From a virus: 29,373 bases of DNA. Positions 2,569 to 21,516 of this stretch are shown piece by piece. Positions within the stretch are counted from its first letter, which is position 1. Every line of letters starts with the position of its first letter. A program made the translations under genes and the position numbers. Location of the stretch: positions 1 through 29,373 of the IMG/VR virus record IMGVR_UViG_3300011114_000490; one strand, written 5' to 3'. Under the pieces are notes generated by a model, which was not told the origin of the DNA, made no database searches, and saw only the letters and a list, made by a program, of their open reading frames with translations.

Positions 2569-2877
2569 TTATGACACGTTTGTTACTAGTTTAGCCGTAA
2601 TTCTTGTTGATGATTCCACATAATAAACCAAAACATCAACGGCATTGGCGGTAGTTGTTGCGGTAGGTGTGCCGCCAGAAAACTTCCAATAAGACCCATA
2701 TGCAACAGTCCTGGAGCCTGTACCATCTTGAGTTAGAACAATTGCACCACTCTGTCCAGCGGTAAGGTTTGATGGGTTTGCAATCGTAGTACTTGTGCCG
2801 AGTGTAACGGAGAAGTTATTACCTACAGCAAAATCTGGTGTGATTGTTGATGCACTTGTTAGGGCACTGACCGTACC
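2569..2877 (-). repeat. Copy 2 of the shared fibre C-terminal module
   Basis: Encodes residues about 371-472 of the repetitive fibre. It corresponds to the end of the 276-residue fibre encoded at 567-884; both keep STITPDF, NNF.VTL, ANP.N, GQSG, TGSR and YGSYWKF in the same order. Confidence 0.75.
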
Positions 2878-3987
2878 TCTTTGTGCTGCACTAAAACTTT
2901 GCGCAAGACCTAAAACAGCAACCGTACTTGTAGTAGACGGTAGTGTCAGCGTTCCTGAGGCAGCTCCATTTGCAACAAGAGTTGTTGTTCCTGAAACAGA
3001 CCCGCTAAAAACAGTACCGCCTGTACCAGCATTTACAGTTGTTGATGTGATTGCAGTTAACCCAGCAATACTTGTTGCGGTGCTTCCAAGTGCTACAGAA
3101 GTTGAACCAATAGTTACGCTGCTGTTAGCAAGCTGTGCGTTTGGTATTGCGCTTGTACTTAGTACGCCTGTACTACTGTTATAACTGAGTCCTGAGCCTG
3201 CGCCTACGCTTATTGCGCCACGGATGTTTGCGTCTGTTACTACTGTGTACGTAAAGGCGCCAGTGGTGTTGCTATAGCTTAATGATCCGTAACCAGTACC
3301 GCTTGAACTTGCGCTCAGCGAGGTCAATAAAGCTACAGTTCCTGTTGCGGCAGGCAGTGTGATCGTTCCAGATGCAACTGCTGTGGCTACAACTGCTGTT
3401 GTTCCAGATGTGGAGCCAGTGAATACGTGGCCGCCGGTCCCAGCTGTCAGTGTTGTAGCTGTAAGTGCAGTTAAACCGGCAATGCTGGTGGCAGTGGCGC
3501 CAAGGGAAACCGAGGTGCTACCAAGTGTTACAGAACTATTTGCAAGCTGTGCGTTCGGTATTGCGCTTGTACTTATTATGCCTGTGCTGCTGCTGTAAGT
3601 AAGACCTGAGCCAGCACCAACACTTATGGCACCACGAATGTTCGCGTCGGTAACTACGCTATAAGTAAAGGCGCCAGTAGCTGTACTATACGAAAGACTT
3701 CCGTAACCAGTTCCGCTATTGGATGTACTCAGTGAGCCGCGAATGTTTGCGTCTGTAACTACAGAAAATGTAAATACTCCAGTTGCGCTGCTATAAGCTA
3801 AAGAACCATATCCAGATCCGCTGTTTGCAGCTGAAACAGATGCACGAGCAAGAGCATCAGTGTAATATTTATTTGTTCCTTCCGTTAGATCAGTTGTAGT
3901 GTTTCCAGCAAAATCTAACTTATCGGTAGGAGTGTTTACTTCCTGTAAGTAACCACTAACAAGGGCGATTGCTTTACGAGTTGCCAT
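2569..3987 (-). CDS. Repetitive tail fibre protein (472 aa)
   Basis: The protein starts with MATRKAIALVSGYLQEV and a DLTEGTNKYYTDALARA segment at residues 33-49; the 'LTEG..n.YYTDAra' motif marks many cyanophage and aquatic phage fibres. Residues 54-364 are a repetitive shaft: three copies of a 31-residue unit (SG.GYGSL.YS..TG.FT.. then VVTDANIRG) at about 54-84, 89-119 and 227-257, and two copies of a 103-residue unit (GAISVGAGSGL ... IPNAQLANSSV ... TSIAGLTA) at about 119-221 and 257-359. The shaft is Ser/Thr/Gly/Ala rich and has no Cys. Residues about 371-472 form the C-terminal module shared with the fibre at 567-1397. Function in host attachment is inferred; the modular layout suggests a trimeric beta-structured fibre whose length is set by repeat number. 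Confidence 0.8.
   Translation of the reverse strand: MATRKAIALVSGYLQEVNTPTDKLDFAGNTTTDLTEGTNKYYTDALARASVSAANSGSGYGSLAYSSATGVFTFSVVTDANIRGSLSTSNSGTGYGSLSYSTATGAFTYSVVTDANIRGAISVGAGSGLTYSSSTGIISTSAIPNAQLANSSVTLGSTSVSLGATATSIAGLTALTATTLTAGTGGHVFTGSTSGTTAVVATAVASGTITLPAATGTVALLTSLSASSSGTGYGSLSYSNTTGAFTYTVVTDANIRGAISVGAGSGLSYNSSTGVLSTSAIPNAQLANSSVTIGSTSVALGSTATSIAGLTAITSTTVNAGTGGTVFSGSVSGTTTLVANGAASGTLTLPSTTSTVAVLGLAQSFSAAQRGTVSALTSASTITPDFAVGNNFSVTLGTSTTIANPSNLTAGQSGAIVLTQDGTGSRTVAYGSYWKFSGGTPTATTTANAVDVLVYYVESSTRITAKLVTNVS
2896..3723 (-). repeat. Two tandem 414-bp (138-codon) units in a fibre gene
   Basis: Residues 89-226 (3310-3723) and 227-364 (2896-3309) of the 472-residue fibre are two in-register copies of a 138-residue unit. 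Each holds a YGSL repeat, the VVTDANIRG motif, IPNAQLANSSV and TATSIAGLTA. Many codons differ at third positions, so the duplication is not very recent. Confidence 0.75.
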
Positions 3988-9064: not shown

Positions 9065-9994
9065 TTAATACAAGATTTGATTTTGTTGATCTTGGTTATT
9101 TTTTTTCTTGCTCTCTGCTTTAGAAAACAATGCTTTGGTTGCTTTTTTTAAACCGTACGCAGCAACACTAGATGCAACTGGTGCCAAGGTACTACCAACT
9201 AAGTAGTTGCCGACCTGTGCCAAACCTCTACCATATGTAGGGGTTGTTCCTGCTTGCTTCATGATGTTTAATCCACGTTTCGTAGCGGTGATTTCAGATC
9301 CAAGTAACGATGCATTTAAGGATACACCAGATAAAATACCAGCACCAATTGCTTGAGGCAAAGAGTCGCTGTATAGACCACCTAATGCTGCTCCATAAAC
9401 AGATGCCTTTTTTCTTGATGATTTATTAAAGTCACGATGCTGAGATTCGTACAAGCTATGTATTTTTCCGCCTAAGGTAGTAGAATTTTGCATTTGCGCA
9501 GAAGCATGACCCAACTCGTGCGCTACAGTAAATGAATCTGAAGTGGGCCCCAGTCCTATCAGCACTTGTTCAACATTTCCAGTATTTTCATTTCTACGTG
9601 TAGCAGCGAATCCTCCGGTACGTTTTGGCGTAGCTGCAAACCGAACTTGAGAAGTTTTGTCTATTTTTGGATATAATTTTGCTGCAGTATATGCATAATT
9701 TATTAAAACAGGATTTGTTATATCTTGTGCCAAGATGGGGGGATTATTTTTTCCTAAGGTAACCGTATAAGGGCTATTAATTTTTTTTGTTTGCGGACTC
9801 GAAATTATCGCTTCACTTGGATCAGAAGTCTTAAGCGCAGGGTAAAGATAATCCCTGTATAGTTGATTAATATTTTTTCTTTGGTTGTTCAAGAGTACAC
9901 CAGAACCAGCAATCCCGGCTCCAGCAAGAAACTCTGACACCCTTTCCTTCAAAGGTTTCTTTTGTTTCTGTTCCTGCTCTAGTTCTTGTTCCAT
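9065..9994 (-). CDS. Putative membrane-embedded HExxH zinc metallopeptidase (309 aa)
   Basis: The protein has HELGH at residues 159-163 in SDSFTVAHELGHASAQMQNS, the classic zinc-binding and catalytic motif of gluzincin peptidases. About 70 residues on comes LLGSEITATKRGLNIMKQAG (E234), which resembles the third-ligand helix of M48-like and Zn_peptidase_2-type enzymes ('xxxE..A..rgl..L...G'). Gly/Ala-rich hydrophobic stretches lie at about 22-35, 196-232 and 265-285, so the domain may sit in or on a membrane. The first 20 residues are charged (EQELEQEQKQKKPLKERVSE) and the C-terminus is Lys/Gln rich. The start has no ribosome site, and its ATG follows a run of As directly after the upstream stop, suggesting translational coupling. 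Candidate roles are virion maturation or crossing of the cell envelope; substrate unknown. Confidence 0.6.
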   Translation of the reverse strand: MEQELEQEQKQKKPLKERVSEFLAGAGIAGSGVLLNNQRKNINQLYRDYLYPALKTSDPSEAIISSPQTKKINSPYTVTLGKNNPPILAQDITNPVLINYAYTAAKLYPKIDKTSQVRFAATPKRTGGFAATRRNENTGNVEQVLIGLGPTSDSFTVAHELGHASAQMQNSTTLGGKIHSLYESQHRDFNKSSRKKASVYGAALGGLYSDSLPQAIGAGILSGVSLNASLLGSEITATKRGLNIMKQAGTTPTYGRGLAQVGNYLVGSTLAPVASSVAAYGLKKATKALFSKAESKKKNNQDQQNQILY

Positions 9995-10001
9995 TTTTTT
10001 T

Positions 10002-10313
10002 TTAATTACTTATAAATTGAGTATAATTCCCATACAAGTTATTTTGTGTAGAATTCCTAGCCAGGTCTACAGGAGGGAGCGGGTCTAAGTGTGAGCGGGA
10101 AACCTCTTTCATGTACGCTGGATTGTTTAACTGAAACTGAGGCTTCTCAATACCATTGTACGCAACAACGTATGGACAATGCATTGTTTTATCCGTACGC
10201 TTCATGTTAAACGGGTCACTAAAACCTGCCGTTGTAATACTCCCATCGCCATACAAGTTCCCGTATGTTACGGGAAAGCTTGGATCATAGCCAGGGACCT
10301 GAGCAAATCTCAT
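10002..10313 (-). CDS. Hypothetical virion-associated protein (103 aa)
   Basis: The product begins MRFAQVPGYDPSFPVTYGNL and ends NLYGNYTQFISN; it is rich in Tyr, Asn, Pro and Gly, with no predicted membrane segment or coiled coil, and has one Cys (MHCPYVVAYNG). I recognise no domain. It sits between a peptidase-type hydrolase and the HELGH protein, with five bases to the former. The start context, with no ribosome site, is nearly the same as that of the upstream hydrolase gene, since both follow a copy of the same 153-bp duplication. It may be a tail or lysis accessory. Confidence 0.45.
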   Translation of the reverse strand: MRFAQVPGYDPSFPVTYGNLYGDGSITTAGFSDPFNMKRTDKTMHCPYVVAYNGIEKPQFQLNNPAYMKEVSRSHLDPLPPVDLARNSTQNNLYGNYTQFISN

Positions 10314-10315
10314 TG

Positions 10316-10468
10316 TGTTTAACTTAAGTAATTTGGTTGAGCACTCAAGATTTTTTGCATTTGAGATATGTATGGATTTTCTTGCGAAGTCGATGCAGTC
10401 GGAAGACTAGTAGAAGATAGGCCGCGACTTACCATAAATTGTTTTAAATTTGACAGAACATCCGTTGG
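10316..10468 (-). repeat. Direct repeat copy A encoding a hydrolase C-terminal module
   Basis: This 153-bp stretch aligns without gaps to 10987-11139 with about 17 differences by eye (roughly 89% identity). It encodes SNLKQF.(..)RGLSST ... NPYISQMQKILSAQPNYLS and runs a few bases past the stop into the gap before the next gene. Confidence 0.85.
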
Positions 10469-10984
10469 TTCGCCGCCAGGGGTACCTGGAATCAGGACAA
10501 AAGTATTGCCAGTACTTTGATTTTGTATTGGTTGACTTTGCTGTGCTTGCTGTTGTGTTGGTATAGTTGGCGCCTGACCTGGCATTACGTCAGTAAGCTT
10601 GCCTTCTGGTGTTTTGTATCGACCGGTAGCAAGCCATTCTAATTGTTGGTCCGATAAGGGCGCCTTACCTGGTAATGCTAAATGAACATGAGTGTCGTGA
10701 CCAGGGTCCCCAGGTCCAAACGTTTCGGCAAAAGTCCCAAGCTTCTTAGCTCTCCAGGCTAATTCTCCTGTTCGTTGTTTCCAGCTTTTTGGTGTGCCTC
10801 CTTCGTAAGCTGGTGCCATATCAGGACGCCAGTCTGTTACGTCTATTGCTGCTCCACCTGGGGCATAGTGATAAGAGTCCTTGGCATGGACACCAGAAAC
10901 GCCGCCAAATGCAGGATTTTCTCCTACCTTCAAACCATATTTCTGAAGAAAGTTACCTACGTCAACAATAGATCTGTCAACCAT
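10319..10984 (-). CDS. LAS/M15-like peptidoglycan peptidase (endolysin-type) with shared C-terminal module
   Basis: Residues 30-102 carry the zinc-binding pattern of LAS-type D,D- or L,D-peptidases (M15 and relatives): SGVHAKDSYHYAPGGAAIDV, with H39 and D48 as candidate ligands, and DPGHDTHVHLALPG, giving H99-x-H101. The 'SyHy.pGgAaIDV ... D.HvHlal' form is a known phage variant. The enzyme would cut peptide cross-links in the host cell wall. Residues about 110-177 form a Gln/Pro-rich linker (PTIPTQQQAQQSQPIQNQS) and the last ~45 (LSNLKQF.VSRGLSS ... ISQMQKILSAQPNYLS) are almost the same as the C-terminus of the next hydrolase upstream. Total length is 221. The gene starts six bases after the neighbour's stop without a ribosome site. 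It may be a virion-borne hydrolase or the endolysin. Confidence 0.7.
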   Translation of the reverse strand: MVDRSIVDVGNFLQKYGLKVGENPAFGGVSGVHAKDSYHYAPGGAAIDVTDWRPDMAPAYEGGTPKSWKQRTGELAWRAKKLGTFAETFGPGDPGHDTHVHLALPGKAPLSDQQLEWLATGRYKTPEGKLTDVMPGQAPTIPTQQQAQQSQPIQNQSTGNTFVLIPGTPGGEPTDVLSNLKQFMVSRGLSSTSLPTASTSQENPYISQMQKILSAQPNYLS

Positions 10985-10986
10985 GA

Positions 10987-11139
10987 TGTTTAACTTAAAT
11001 AATTTGGTTGAGCACTCAAGATTTTTTGCATTTGAGATATGTATGGGTTCGCTTGAGAAGTCGATGCAGACGGAAACTCAGTAGAAGATAAGCCGCGATC
11101 TAAGATAAATTGTTTTAAATTTGACAGAGCATCTGTTGG
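10987..11139 (-). repeat. Direct repeat copy B encoding a hydrolase C-terminal module
   Basis: Partner of 10316-10468. It codes for the last ~48 residues of the SleB-like hydrolase and includes the few bases between its stop codon and the next start. The offset of 671 bp is constant along the whole repeat. Confidence 0.85.
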
Positions 11140-11694
11140 CGCCTTGTCTCCGGTATAAACAATAAAGGTGTTGCCGCCCTGAGAAGCAGGTTGTTGCGGC
11201 TGTTCTGAACTTGGAACTTGAGATGTAGGTACTCCAGCTCCTTTTAATAGACGATCAGATAAACTTTTAGCTAAGCCAGGATTAGTTTGAAAATAAAAAT
11301 TACCTTTAGGATCAAACATAACGTCGCCCTTTTGTTTATTGCCAAGCAAGCTTTGACCACGAAACTGCTCAGCACCTTGCCCGGTTTGAAACGCCTGCAC
11401 CATCTGTGACGGATTCTCAAACATCTGTTCAATTTGTTTATACCTGGCACCATGAACCTTGCTTCCGTAAGCAGGATCCATTACTTGTGCACGTGAATAA
11501 GGATCGTTAGCAACAAATTGTTGAGGTGCTTTTACAAGGTCAGCAATATTTCCTCCGTTTTTAAATTTTCGAGTTAAGATTGTTTGTAAGACACCTAAAG
11601 GATCCCTTCCAGGACCGGCCTCTCCAGAGGCAGTAAAAAGTGCGGCGGCCTTTTCTTGTGGCGTTAAACCTAAAATTTGACTTGTGGTAGGCAT
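10990..11694 (-). CDS. SleB-like cell wall hydrolase (234 aa) with shared C-terminal module
   Basis: A reading frame continues upstream to 11844, but the start at 11692-11694 is preferred: it has AAGGAG at 11704-11709 with a nine-base spacer, and it removes a 137-base overlap with the gene before it. The N-terminus MPTTSQILGLTPQEKAAALF leads into TASGEAGPGRDPLGVLQTIL then TRKFKNGGNIADLVKAPQQF, a good match to cell wall hydrolase SleB-type domains (Hydrolase_2, PF07486), with E25 of SGEAG as the catalytic glutamate. Such enzymes act as lytic transglycosylases on peptidoglycan glycan strands. After a Gln/Ser linker (about residues 165-185) comes the ~45-residue module ending ISQMQKILSAQPNYLS that is shared with the next gene. 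Together the two would cut both glycan and peptide bonds. Confidence 0.7.
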   Translation of the reverse strand: MPTTSQILGLTPQEKAAALFTASGEAGPGRDPLGVLQTILTRKFKNGGNIADLVKAPQQFVANDPYSRAQVMDPAYGSKVHGARYKQIEQMFENPSQMVQAFQTGQGAEQFRGQSLLGNKQKGDVMFDPKGNFYFQTNPGLAKSLSDRLLKGAGVPTSQVPSSEQPQQPASQGGNTFIVYTGDKAPTDALSNLKQFILDRGLSSTEFPSASTSQANPYISQMQKILSAQPNYLS

Positions 11695-11703
11695 ATCGTT
11701 AAT

Positions 11704-11709
11704 CTCCTT
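11704..11709 (-). promoter_or_regulatory. Ribosome binding site that fixes the SleB-like hydrolase start
   Basis: AAGGAG on the minus strand, nine bases before the ATG at 11694 and overlapping the TAA stop of the connector-like gene (TAAGGAG). This makes the internal start far better supported than the upstream one at 11844. Confidence 0.75.
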
Positions 11710-12187
11710 AGCGGAAACTATTTGAAAGCATGAGCCTAGTGCCAACGGCAACGTCAGCAGGGCCCGGAAGTGCCTGAATAAATTCGGCGCCTTCTCGATT
11801 AAACCTATACCGAGCCTGTTCAGGGTTTCGGTAATTTGGAACATAAAGATGTAAAGCTAATCGATCCGTCTCGTATATATAAATTGTCGTCCAAGTTTTA
11901 AGCGTTTCTTTGAAATCAGAAGTCGCAATCGTACGATCTACGTCACCTGCAATGCTTTCAATACGATTACGTGGAACAGTATTGTTGTTAACGCTACCAG
12001 TCATGTCAGTGCGTTTCTCTGCTTGGTCGCACCGACCGATCTGTTCGACAATTTTTGAATACCAGAACGAATCCGGAATGTTGTTGACAGCTTCCTCAAG
12101 ACGGGCCTGGTCACCGGCAGGGACACTTGTAGTGTTGTATCCCAGGTGCCAGCGAACTTTTGACTTGAGGAAACTATCGAGTTGCAT
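11708..12187 (-). CDS. Head-tail connector/neck-like structural protein (159 aa)
   Basis: The N-terminal part, MQLDSFLKSKVRWHLGYNTT then GDQARLEEAVNNIPDSFWYS, is helical and resembles small head-completion proteins in cyanophages with a 'vRwhLGyn...ip.gd.arl..a...i.d......i......' pattern. The middle has IESIAGDVDRTIATSDFKET, and the C-terminus YVPNYRNPEQARYRFNREGA followed by DVAVGTRLMLSNSFR. It starts with TAATG overlap onto the helix-hairpin-helix gene, so translation is coupled. Its place after the capsid and decoration genes and before the hydrolases is where head-completion or neck genes usually lie. The connector role is inferred from position and general form, not from a named domain. 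Confidence 0.55.
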   Translation of the reverse strand: MQLDSFLKSKVRWHLGYNTTSVPAGDQARLEEAVNNIPDSFWYSKIVEQIGRCDQAEKRTDMTGSVNNNTVPRNRIESIAGDVDRTIATSDFKETLKTWTTIYIYETDRLALHLYVPNYRNPEQARYRFNREGAEFIQALPGPADVAVGTRLMLSNSFR

Positions 12188-13527: not shown

Positions 13528-14670
13528 TCAAATAACGGTGAAAGCAGAGGTGATGAAGTCCTTGTTCAGGTTAGCAAAACCGGCGTACAGCTGCCAAATC
13601 AGGATGATGAAGCGGCTGAAGTCGTCGTTATTGTTAATCAGAACCTGAGCATTAGGACCACCGATGCCTACGCCAACAGCCTGAGGACCAAAGAAGAGGC
13701 CAGGAGGAGTTGTATGAGTAATGGCACCAGAACCGTCACCGATATCAACGGTGATGGATTTATCAGCGAAGTTGGTTGATTCGAAGAAGCGAACGCCTTC
13801 AAATACAAAACCGGTAGGCATTACAGGTTCGCCAGCCACGAACATGGCTTGGCCGTACTGACCGCCGCCATAGATGGCTTGGTTAGGAGCGCCAGCACCC
13901 ATCAGAGGGTTGCCTTGGCCCATACCTGGGTAACGAGCCACTTCACGGAAGCCTTGGTCAGCGCGGAGATCCTTCATGAACGAAGGGTCAGCAACGCAAC
14001 GGTAGTAACCATCTTGGAACACGGGAACGTTGCGCTTACGCAGCTGACGAACCACTTCCAGAAGGTCGGTCTTCACGTTGAACTTGTAGCGTTCTGAGGC
14101 GTACTCAGTGGCGCTGTAGGAGTTCAGAGTGGTGGAGGCAGACTTGGTCTTGCCATTGGGGTAGTAGTAACCGCCTTGGGTATCGCCAGAGGCGCCACGG
14201 GACTCAGACTTGGCCATTTCATCAAGGAACACACGGTCCCTCCAACGGCGGTAGTCGTCCAGCAGGGTCAGCGAACCGATGGACTGGTGGAACATGTTAA
14301 GGTTCCCGGTGTCCAGCAGCAGACGCTGAGCGGTCATCAGGGCCTCACGAGCAATCTTGAAGGTGCTCGGGAGGTTGGTGTTGTTTGGGTCAGCAGGACC
14401 GGTGTACTCGCGCAAGGAAACAAGAACCTTGTCCTTTACGATGGCACGGCTGCTAGCGGTACCGATAGTTTGATCTTGGGTACGCTCGCGGCTGGTCTTC
14501 GTCCCAGGGTTGCCCCAGAAACGATAACGGTCTAACTGTACGGTCTGACCAGGTTGTTTGGTAAAGTCATGGACCACGACGGGCTCAGCCGCCATTTCCA
14601 CAATGTAAGCTGGGTGAGGGCGGTAAAGTTCCGCACCCAACAGCTTAGGAAAATCGTTATCGATAAACAT
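13528..14670 (-). CDS. Major capsid protein, N4-gp56-like (HK97 fold)
   Basis: At 380 residues the product has the marks of N4-gp56 family major capsid proteins: a FTKQPGQTVQLDRYRFWGNP N-terminal strand region, DQTIGTASSRAIVKDKVLVS, then the central LLEVVRQLRKRNVPVFQDGY followed by YRCVADPSFMKDLRADQGFR and EVARYPGM (residues about 210-255), where 'LR.rnvP...dGyY.c...P....dlr.d..f.e.arY' is the family's best conserved block. The C-terminus SAFTVI is typical of a shell subunit buried at the end. It should assemble hundreds of copies into the icosahedral head. Codon use is G/C-rich and matches the next gene. It sits after a promoter-like element and hairpin; its own ribosome site is weak (GAG at a poor distance), so the leader may drive its expression. 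Confidence 0.85.
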   Translation of the reverse strand: MFIDNDFPKLLGAELYRPHPAYIVEMAAEPVVVHDFTKQPGQTVQLDRYRFWGNPGTKTSRERTQDQTIGTASSRAIVKDKVLVSLREYTGPADPNNTNLPSTFKIAREALMTAQRLLLDTGNLNMFHQSIGSLTLLDDYRRWRDRVFLDEMAKSESRGASGDTQGGYYYPNGKTKSASTTLNSYSATEYASERYKFNVKTDLLEVVRQLRKRNVPVFQDGYYRCVADPSFMKDLRADQGFREVARYPGMGQGNPLMGAGAPNQAIYGGGQYGQAMFVAGEPVMPTGFVFEGVRFFESTNFADKSITVDIGDGSGAITHTTPPGLFFGPQAVGVGIGGPNAQVLINNNDDFSRFIILIWQLYAGFANLNKDFITSAFTVI

Positions 14671-20269: not shown

Positions 20270-20755
20270 TTAAGACTCTTCTGATAAGATTTTTGTCCAG
20301 ACGCCCATGGACGCTTCTTGAAGTGGACCTTCAATCGGATCGTCACGAAAGATGGAAAGCATTTCCCTTAGTGCACGGTCTGCACCAGCAAGAATTAAAC
20401 CTTGTTTATCGGTTAAAACTTTTTCGTCATTGATCTGTTTAATTGATCCGCGTAATTCTTTTTGAAGCATGGCAATACGGGAGGTTCCCATATCTTGTTT
20501 TACCATGCCAAGATCAATTGCATCACGAAGTTTTGCAATGTCTTGCTGCATGAAGTCAACTTCTTCTTCTAGTAACGCATTAAAGTTTCTTTTTGGATAT
20601 TCTTTTTTTGACCATTCGTCACACTCAACAATGCTACCCTTAAACCCAAGAAAACGGGCATATAGGTACATTTGAATTGGTGTAGAGGTTTTCTTGCAAA
20701 ATGCAAAAAAAGATTCGCGGTCTTTTTCGGTCAGGCTCTGAACCCATTTAATCAT
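20270..20755 (-). CDS. Probable terminase small subunit (161 aa)
   Basis: It immediately precedes the large terminase and is of suitable size. The sequence MIKWVQSLTEKDRESFFAFC, MYLYARFLGFKGSIVECDEW and KKEYPKRNFNALLEEEVDFM is followed by a long helix (QQDIAKLRDAIDLGMVKQDM then AMLQKELRGSIKQINDEKVL) typical of the coiled-coil oligomerisation arm of small terminases. The N-terminal 'pi..Y..ar..gf.Gs...c..W...' block could be a helix-turn-helix for recognition of the packaging site, but no exact motif is seen. The C-terminus includes AGADRALREMLSIFRDDP. It overlaps the gene before it by ATGA. The role rests on position and general form. Confidence 0.6.
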   Translation of the reverse strand: MIKWVQSLTEKDRESFFAFCKKTSTPIQMYLYARFLGFKGSIVECDEWSKKEYPKRNFNALLEEEVDFMQQDIAKLRDAIDLGMVKQDMGTSRIAMLQKELRGSIKQINDEKVLTDKQGLILAGADRALREMLSIFRDDPIEGPLQEASMGVWTKILSEES

Positions 20756-21516
20756 GATCTGTATTGATTTTGAGCTTGTTCGTAGTCCCTATTTTCTTTA
20801 TAGCGTCTATACATTTCTTGTTGGGTATCGGTAGTACGTTGTTCGGCAGCTGTTTTGCCAATGGTTTCTCGTTGTTCTTCTGCTGTTTTACCAACAGTTT
20901 CACGTTCTTCTGCACCAGATTTACCGATGGTTTCACGTTGTTCTTCTGCAGTCTTGCCTACAGTTGTGCGTTCTTCTGCAGCTTGCACGCCAATGGTAGA
21001 ACGTTGCTCAGATCCGGATTCTGTAATTAAGCCGCGTTCTCCTGTGTAACGTTCCGCTTGGGTTAAACGCTCTTCTAACCCTGTTTTGCCTATGTTGGCA
21101 CGTTGTTCTGAGCCACTTTTTCCAATCAAAGTCTCTTCTCCAGCATACCGTTCTGCTTGAGTGAGGCGTGCTTGGTTTCCTTGTTCTTGTGCAAGTCCTT
21201 TTTCTCCGGCGTAGCGTGTAAGTAAAGTGTCTCTTTCTTCTTGGGCCTGCCTAGAAATACTGTTACGATTTTCTATTCCTTGTGCGCTAATATTTAAACG
21301 TGACTCAGCACCTGCTGCCTGAGTTCGTCTTATGTCTTCGCCAGCAAAGTAAGTAGCGTTATACCGATCTAGTTGGGCGCCTACCTCCATATTAAGGCGG
21401 GTTTGGGCAGCACTTATATTGCCTAAGTCCAGCTGCGTCCGATACGCCTGAGTAGGTATCTCTACCTTCTCTGGATTGGATTGAGCTTGAGGTATTAGTA
21501 CTGTTTGATCGGCCAT
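20752..21516 (-). CDS. Protein of ~18 tandem 11-residue (hendecad) repeats (254 aa)
   Basis: After a 56-residue head, the protein from residue 57 to its end divides exactly into eighteen 11-residue units without insertions, with a motif about G.(A/S/T)(A/G).E.R.T(I/V)GK. Examples in order: QGIENRNSISR, QAQEERDTLLT, SGSEQRANIGK, TAEEQRETIGK, SGAEERETVGK, TAAEQRTTDTQ. Some units also repeat in groups of three, for example RLTQAERY.GE. The hendecad period is that of right-handed coiled coils and of lipid- or stress-associated 11-mer repeat proteins. It has no Cys and is highly charged. Neighbours are the small terminase (ATGA overlap) and a small Pro/Gln-rich protein. It may be an internal virion rod or an ejected protein that lines a channel; function not assigned. 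Confidence 0.65.
   Translation of the reverse strand: MADQTVLIPQAQSNPEKVEIPTQAYRTQLDLGNISAAQTRLNMEVGAQLDRYNATYFAGEDIRRTQAAGAESRLNISAQGIENRNSISRQAQEERDTLLTRYAGEKGLAQEQGNQARLTQAERYAGEETLIGKSGSEQRANIGKTGLEERLTQAERYTGERGLITESGSEQRSTIGVQAAEERTTVGKTAEEQRETIGKSGAEERETVGKTAEEQRETIGKTAAEQRTTDTQQEMYRRYKENRDYEQAQNQYRS
20755..21348 (-). repeat. 33-bp tandem repeats encoding 11-residue units
   Basis: Eighteen consecutive 33-bp units by reading frame; those at about 20820-21010 are most alike at DNA level (e.g. repeated TTCTTCTGC and GTTTCACGTTC blocks on the plus strand). The older units have diverged. No CRISPR-like spacers are present. Confidence 0.7.

Follow-up and report, generated by a model that had tools for sequence, protein, structure and literature searches.

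A shared C-terminal tail on two putative cell-wall hydrolases is probably a docking tag in the lineage of cyanophage S-EIV1

The stretch of viral DNA analyzed here (the window, 29,373 nucleotides, a 29.4 kb viral fragment) carries two adjacent genes, gene G and gene P, whose predicted products have different heads and nearly the same C-terminus. The features of the locus are as follows, with gene order A being that of the window.

10990..11694, minus strand: gene G, putative glycan-cleaving wall hydrolase of 234 aa with the shared tail, from the open reading frame, its relatives and a weak PHROG endolysin match
10319..10984, minus strand: gene P, M15/LAS-like metallopeptidase of 221 aa with the shared tail, from invariant ligands, a 1lbu profile match and structural matches
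10993..11178, minus strand: C-terminal tail module of gene G, 62 aa, with two short helices (residues 189-199 and 217-227) predicted at low confidence
10322..10510, minus strand: C-terminal tail module of gene P, with two short helices (residues 176-186 and 204-214) predicted at low confidence
10982..11139, minus strand: DNA repeat copy 1, comprising the end of gene G, its stop codon, the spacer and the start codon of gene P
10311..10468, minus strand: DNA repeat copy 2, comprising the end of gene P, its stop codon, the spacer and the start codon of gene 10002-10313
10002..10313, minus strand: 103-aa protein directly downstream of the pair, candidate accessory, in order A seen only where the pair is present
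11708..12187, minus strand: conserved phrog_29158 protein, encoded immediately upstream of the pair and serving as synteny anchor
13528..14670, minus strand: major capsid protein, encoded in this module and used for sampling relatives

A repeat search of the window recovered a direct repeat of 158 nt, 88% identical between copies and offset by 671 nt, which agrees with the 153 bp, about 89% and 671 bp given in an earlier note on this sequence. Each copy begins about 45 codons before a hydrolase stop codon and ends at the ATG of the next gene, and the 3' junctions from gene 10990-11694 into gene 10319-10984 and from the latter into gene 10002-10313 both lie within it on the minus strand. Thus, the statement that the repeat takes in the stop codon and the start context of the following gene is correct for both copies. 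The repeat is not an assembly artefact, since 158 nt at 88% identity is far beyond chance and both genes occur in independent contigs (L001, L002 and L003). The last 45 codons of genes G and P are 88.9% identical in DNA, and their codon differences are 4 synonymous and 7 non-synonymous. The common tail was previously put at about 45 residues; the sharing is real, but at the protein level the tail extends to about 62 aa (75% identical between G and P), starting with GGNTFIVYTG and TGNTFVLIPG, respectively. Only these two copies were found in the window, with no third.

Low-confidence structure models predict the tail to be a flexible, mostly disordered linker with two short helices and without a folded domain. 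No Pfam family was matched in the tail of either window protein at E<=1, including the known cell-wall binding domains SH3b, LysM and PG_binding. A profile of the order-A tails, searched at E below 0.5 against 2,378 locus proteins, matched nothing beyond these hydrolases and four truncated copies. Phage records matched the heads only weakly and none was matched through the tails; the sole match of the S-EIV1 tail was S-EIV1 itself.

The “LAS/M15-like” label of gene P holds, as the zinc ligands are invariant and the profile matches 1lbu with an E value of 1.4e-3. Residues H39, D48, H99 and H101 are invariant in 34 relatives and satisfy the HxxGxAxD-like plus HxH zinc-ligand pattern. The structure model matched VldE, 1lbu and hedgehog at Z of about 5-6, tied with unrelated folds, and the single sequence had no Pfam match. 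Gene P is predicted to cut peptide cross-links. When cellular genomes were searched with the M15 alignment, 22 distant relatives were obtained, which were matched only inside residues 4-119, and none of these matches extends through the tail.

Gene G is a putative glycan-cutter. It matches a PHROG endolysin family weakly (7e-6), and its position in relatives is occupied by SLT, tail-lysozyme or lambda-lysozyme heads. Residues E25, Q59 and F60, a conserved Glu and a QF motif, are invariant among relatives, while the structure model was too poor for a fold match. The name “SleB-like” given to it earlier is a label only, since Pfam Hydrolase_2 (PF07486) was unmatched in 8 records at E<=10, whereas control genomes did match.

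The window falls within the lineage of cyanophage S-EIV1, a widespread uncultured group. Its portal-like protein and its capsid protein are 58% and 70% identical to those of Synechococcus phage S-EIV1, the sole phage record that either protein matched. The host of S-EIV1 is Synechococcus sp. PCCC-A2c. The hydrolase pair is part of the structural module and has the genes of the major capsid protein and the conserved phrog_29158 protein nearby. The downstream 103-aa gene (10002-10313) is present in 24 of 31 order-A loci, in none of the 23 loci of the other arrangement, order B, and in none of the 19 that lack the pair, and its product is a candidate accessory of the pair. The window protein at 9065-9994 has an HELGH motif and is possibly a metallopeptidase; it occurs in the compared region of only 2 of the 31 order-A loci. 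Elsewhere in the window, 33-nt repeats (20836-21132) lie inside a protein (20752-21516) rich in 11-residue units of the GKTAEEQRETI type, and a fibre-like protein (2569-3987) contains long diverged internal repeats at 2912-3822 (300 nt at 70% and 95 nt at 73-75%).

Relatives were gathered by head searches and by a capsid search independent of the hydrolases, the latter contributing 80 of at least 571 capsid-bearing loci, and 75 deduplicated loci spanning the region were compared; all are metagenomic except S-EIV1. Exactly one putative glycan-cutter and one putative peptidase were found in 54 of the 75 loci, both hydrolases were absent from this place in 19 (L110, L111, L114, L124, L132, L150, L154 and L160 among them), and 2 had the glycan-cutter only. 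A gene-G-type head without a peptidase partner is seen at L015:2281-3033 and L017:4001-4759, which are natural single-enzyme controls; at their C-termini the GNTF and last-helix motifs are missing, whereas an FLNTF- or FANSY-like stretch is retained. In order A, gene G and then gene P follow phrog_29158 in tandem, whereas in order B, that of S-EIV1, gene P precedes phrog_29158 and gene G lies about 1.5 kb after it. A separate Phage_lysozyme gene was present in 11 of 12 records, including 3 of 4 without the pair.

Each head was typed by its similarity to seed proteins. The glycan-cutters comprise SLT or SLT_3 transglycosylases, phage tail lysozymes (Phage_lysozyme2), lambda-type lysozymes and the window type; the name “GH24” for one of these groups was wrong, since its match is to lambda lysozyme (1am7, E 3e-12). 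Each peptidase is either M15-like or M23-like. The M23-like assignment is based on how S-EIV1 is annotated and on weak matches to PHROG endolysins. In these heads HxxxD is present and the second motif incomplete, and PF01551 (M23) was unmatched at E<=10 in 8 records, S-EIV1 among them. Neither SleB (PF07486) nor M23 (PF01551) can thus stand as a firm family name, and we use “-like” only. M15 and M23 are both assigned to the broad LAS group; the M15-like and M23-like heads found here have no sequence similarity. At least five head families bear the tails. Additional frames were seen at some loci: one ahead of gene G at L087:10320-10943, starting MPYTGAWGDSIAAGLQQAYG, looks like an SGNH/GDSL-type hydrolase, and 243-aa frames with LGDG motifs, which resemble LAGLIDADG homing endonucleases, adjoin or lie inside the capsid gene (L004:818-1549, L004:1982-2713 and L009:498-1229).

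Our comparison revealed that the two tails of a genome match each other. After removal of near-duplicates, 29 order-A genomes remained, and the last 75 residues were compared by local alignment. Tails of own partners scored 100.1 versus 57.8 for partners from other genomes, a mean reached in 0 of 20,000 permutations, while the N-terminal 100 residues showed no effect (27.03 versus 26.98). Mere descent of both tails from an old duplication is rejected, since it would leave own partners no closer than those of other genomes; the closeness indicates that the order-A tails have been kept alike by conversion or selection. The linker motif (YNxY, TFIV-like or neither) agrees between partners in 29 of 29 order-A genomes, although these agreements are not independent because the motif changed only about three times and the genomes are related. 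The own-partner effect was weaker in order B (n=22; 41.2 versus 37.0; 398 of 20,000 permutations), and the second gene of L069 does not share the tail of its partner.

The heads have been replaced often while the tail variant stayed. On a tree built from three conserved virion-module proteins, the fewest changes required were 9 for the glycan-cutter family, 7 for the peptidase family and 3 for the tail motif. The sequence evidence for swapping consists of five tail comparisons from four genome pairs. In the sister genomes L118 and L120 both heads differ; their peptidase tails are 86% identical below M15 and M23-like heads, and their glycan-cutter tails 67% identical below different heads. Alike tails below different heads also occur in L010/L105 (83%), S-EIV1/L069 (81%) and L046/L048 (76%). 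Head-to-head alignment scores in the swap pairs were 25-31, the level of unrelated sequences, and dN/dS across the five tail pairs was 0.11-0.23, which marks the tail as a functional element, not as a passive spacer. The tail type of L119 departs from that of its tree neighbors; its closest relatives, L122 and L123, hardly differ from it over most or all of the region. The earlier note held that its proposal would fall if the module were a recent copy found here only, without conservation; this is not what is seen, as the tails are conserved in relatives under purifying selection.

The near-identity of the tails in the window reflects, from the nucleotide comparisons, a recent DNA-level homogenization added onto an older shared module. 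Codon agreement at identical tail residues in the window is 0.78 versus 0.37 expected. In L002 genes G and P have identical DNA over their final approximately 128 nt, up to and including the start codon of the gene that follows, with a sequence unlike that of the window. Gene P of L001 and L003 has the same layout and a divergent tail, so gene P of the window and L002 appears to carry a copy of the gene G tail, the direction being inferred. In L105, L094, L115 and L085, the tail proteins of the partners match although codon agreement is at chance, indicating that the likeness is also held at the protein level.

Taken together, the sequence comparisons suggest that the shared C-terminus is a docking tag for both wall hydrolases, probably on the virion; we give this reading a probability of about 0.6. 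Each hydrolase would consist of an exchangeable catalytic head, a flexible linker and a tail of about 60 residues with two short helices. Two tails of the same variant would, most likely, attach to a single partner at identical or repeated sites. That partner would probably be a structural component of the virion; the enzymes would be loaded during assembly and would act jointly at entry, as the phage opens the cell wall. Heads would be swapped by recombination close to the linker while the tail matched to the partner of the phage is retained, and occasional gene conversion between adjacent tails, as in the window, would copy one tail onto the other gene. A docking tag on the virion would explain the co-variation of the tails, their retention, the joint presence or absence of the two genes and their genomic position. 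Whether the tail variants amount to a lineage-wide plug-and-play code, in which the plug version of each genome matches the virion of that genome and accepts any suitable pair of glycan- and peptide-cutting heads, is in our estimate an even bet.

The idea of a common C-terminal module acting as a tag on different heads is strongly supported: the tails are conserved, are kept through head swaps and match within genomes. On indirect evidence, virion docking is favored over wall binding or enzyme pairing, although sequence alone cannot decide. The most serious competitor, which we consider unlikely, is that the tails bind each other, giving a heteromeric wall-cutting complex without a third partner. 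Within-genome co-variation and joint presence or absence would follow directly from such pairing, and the two short amphipathic-looking helices would suit coiled or bundled pairing. However, pairing alone leaves unexplained why the tail variant tracks the virion-protein tree through many head swaps and why the genes sit in the structural module. In addition, the hydrolases of L015 and L017, which have no partner, retain their tail-like stretch. The same tracking of the virion-protein tree speaks against a tail that binds the cell wall or envelope of the host, a somewhat less likely alternative again. Cell-wall binding domains of lysins are usually C-terminal and behind a linker, and a common target would account for a common tail, but neither window protein has a known binding domain and the tail is predicted to be mostly disordered with two short helices, not a folded domain.

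Two further explanations appear improbable to us, to about the same degree. Neutral gene conversion could homogenize the ends of tandem genes and leave a tail without special function, as the clear recent DNA copying in the window and L002 might suggest; purifying selection on the tails after head swaps (the dN/dS values above) and protein matches at chance codon agreement in the four genomes named argue against it. Alternatively, the pair could be endolysins, which the tail would position inside the host cell when infection ends. The heads do resemble endolysin catalytic domains, but the separate Phage_lysozyme gene elsewhere in nearly all records searched makes a lysis role for the pair unlikely, and the pair sits in the structural module, where 19 relatives have none.

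Virion-borne lysins and virion targeting tags are already known. By analogy, the docking tag proposed here is closest in logic to the capsid targeting sequence (CTS) of T4 and closest in task to gp13 of phi29. The T4 CTS is short, N-terminal and removed by the prohead protease, and phi29 gp13 bears a lysozyme-like domain in addition to its peptidase. The CTS brings diverse internal proteins into the head, and the cargo varies between relatives (PMC3012670). It resembles the present tail in that one tag is shared by diverse cargo, here at least five head families, and differs in that the tag here is C-terminal, about 60 aa long and limited to the wall-hydrolase pair, virion loading being inferred. 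The phi29 protein is a tail-knob M23 wall enzyme (PMC9662197). As with such virion-associated peptidoglycan hydrolases, the wall enzymes here are encoded with structural genes and a separate endolysin is present; in contrast to gp13, the two activities lie on two proteins with the same tag on each and exchangeable heads. Cargo loading peptides of encapsulins are C-terminal, behind a flexible linker, and load different enzymes into one shell; no encapsulin is involved here and the tail is longer. Within the lineage, AHV82231 and AHV82234 of S-EIV1 are M23-like and tail-lysozyme-like enzymes of the same module with C-termini alike, but their gene order and tail class are different and the likeness between both tails is weak. 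A limited full-text search found no description of a tag common to a matched wall-enzyme pair that co-varies across genomes amid head swaps. The C-terminal position, the restriction to a wall-hydrolase pair and the genome-specific co-variation with head swapping are what differs here.

This study also provides function predictions for genes of this widespread uncultured cyanophage lineage that are annotated as hypothetical, and the natural head swaps mark the exchange boundary. The pattern suggests how phages change their wall-breaking enzymes while the particle is unchanged. If the plug-and-play code is true, a phage can change its wall-breaking chemistry without having to redesign the particle.
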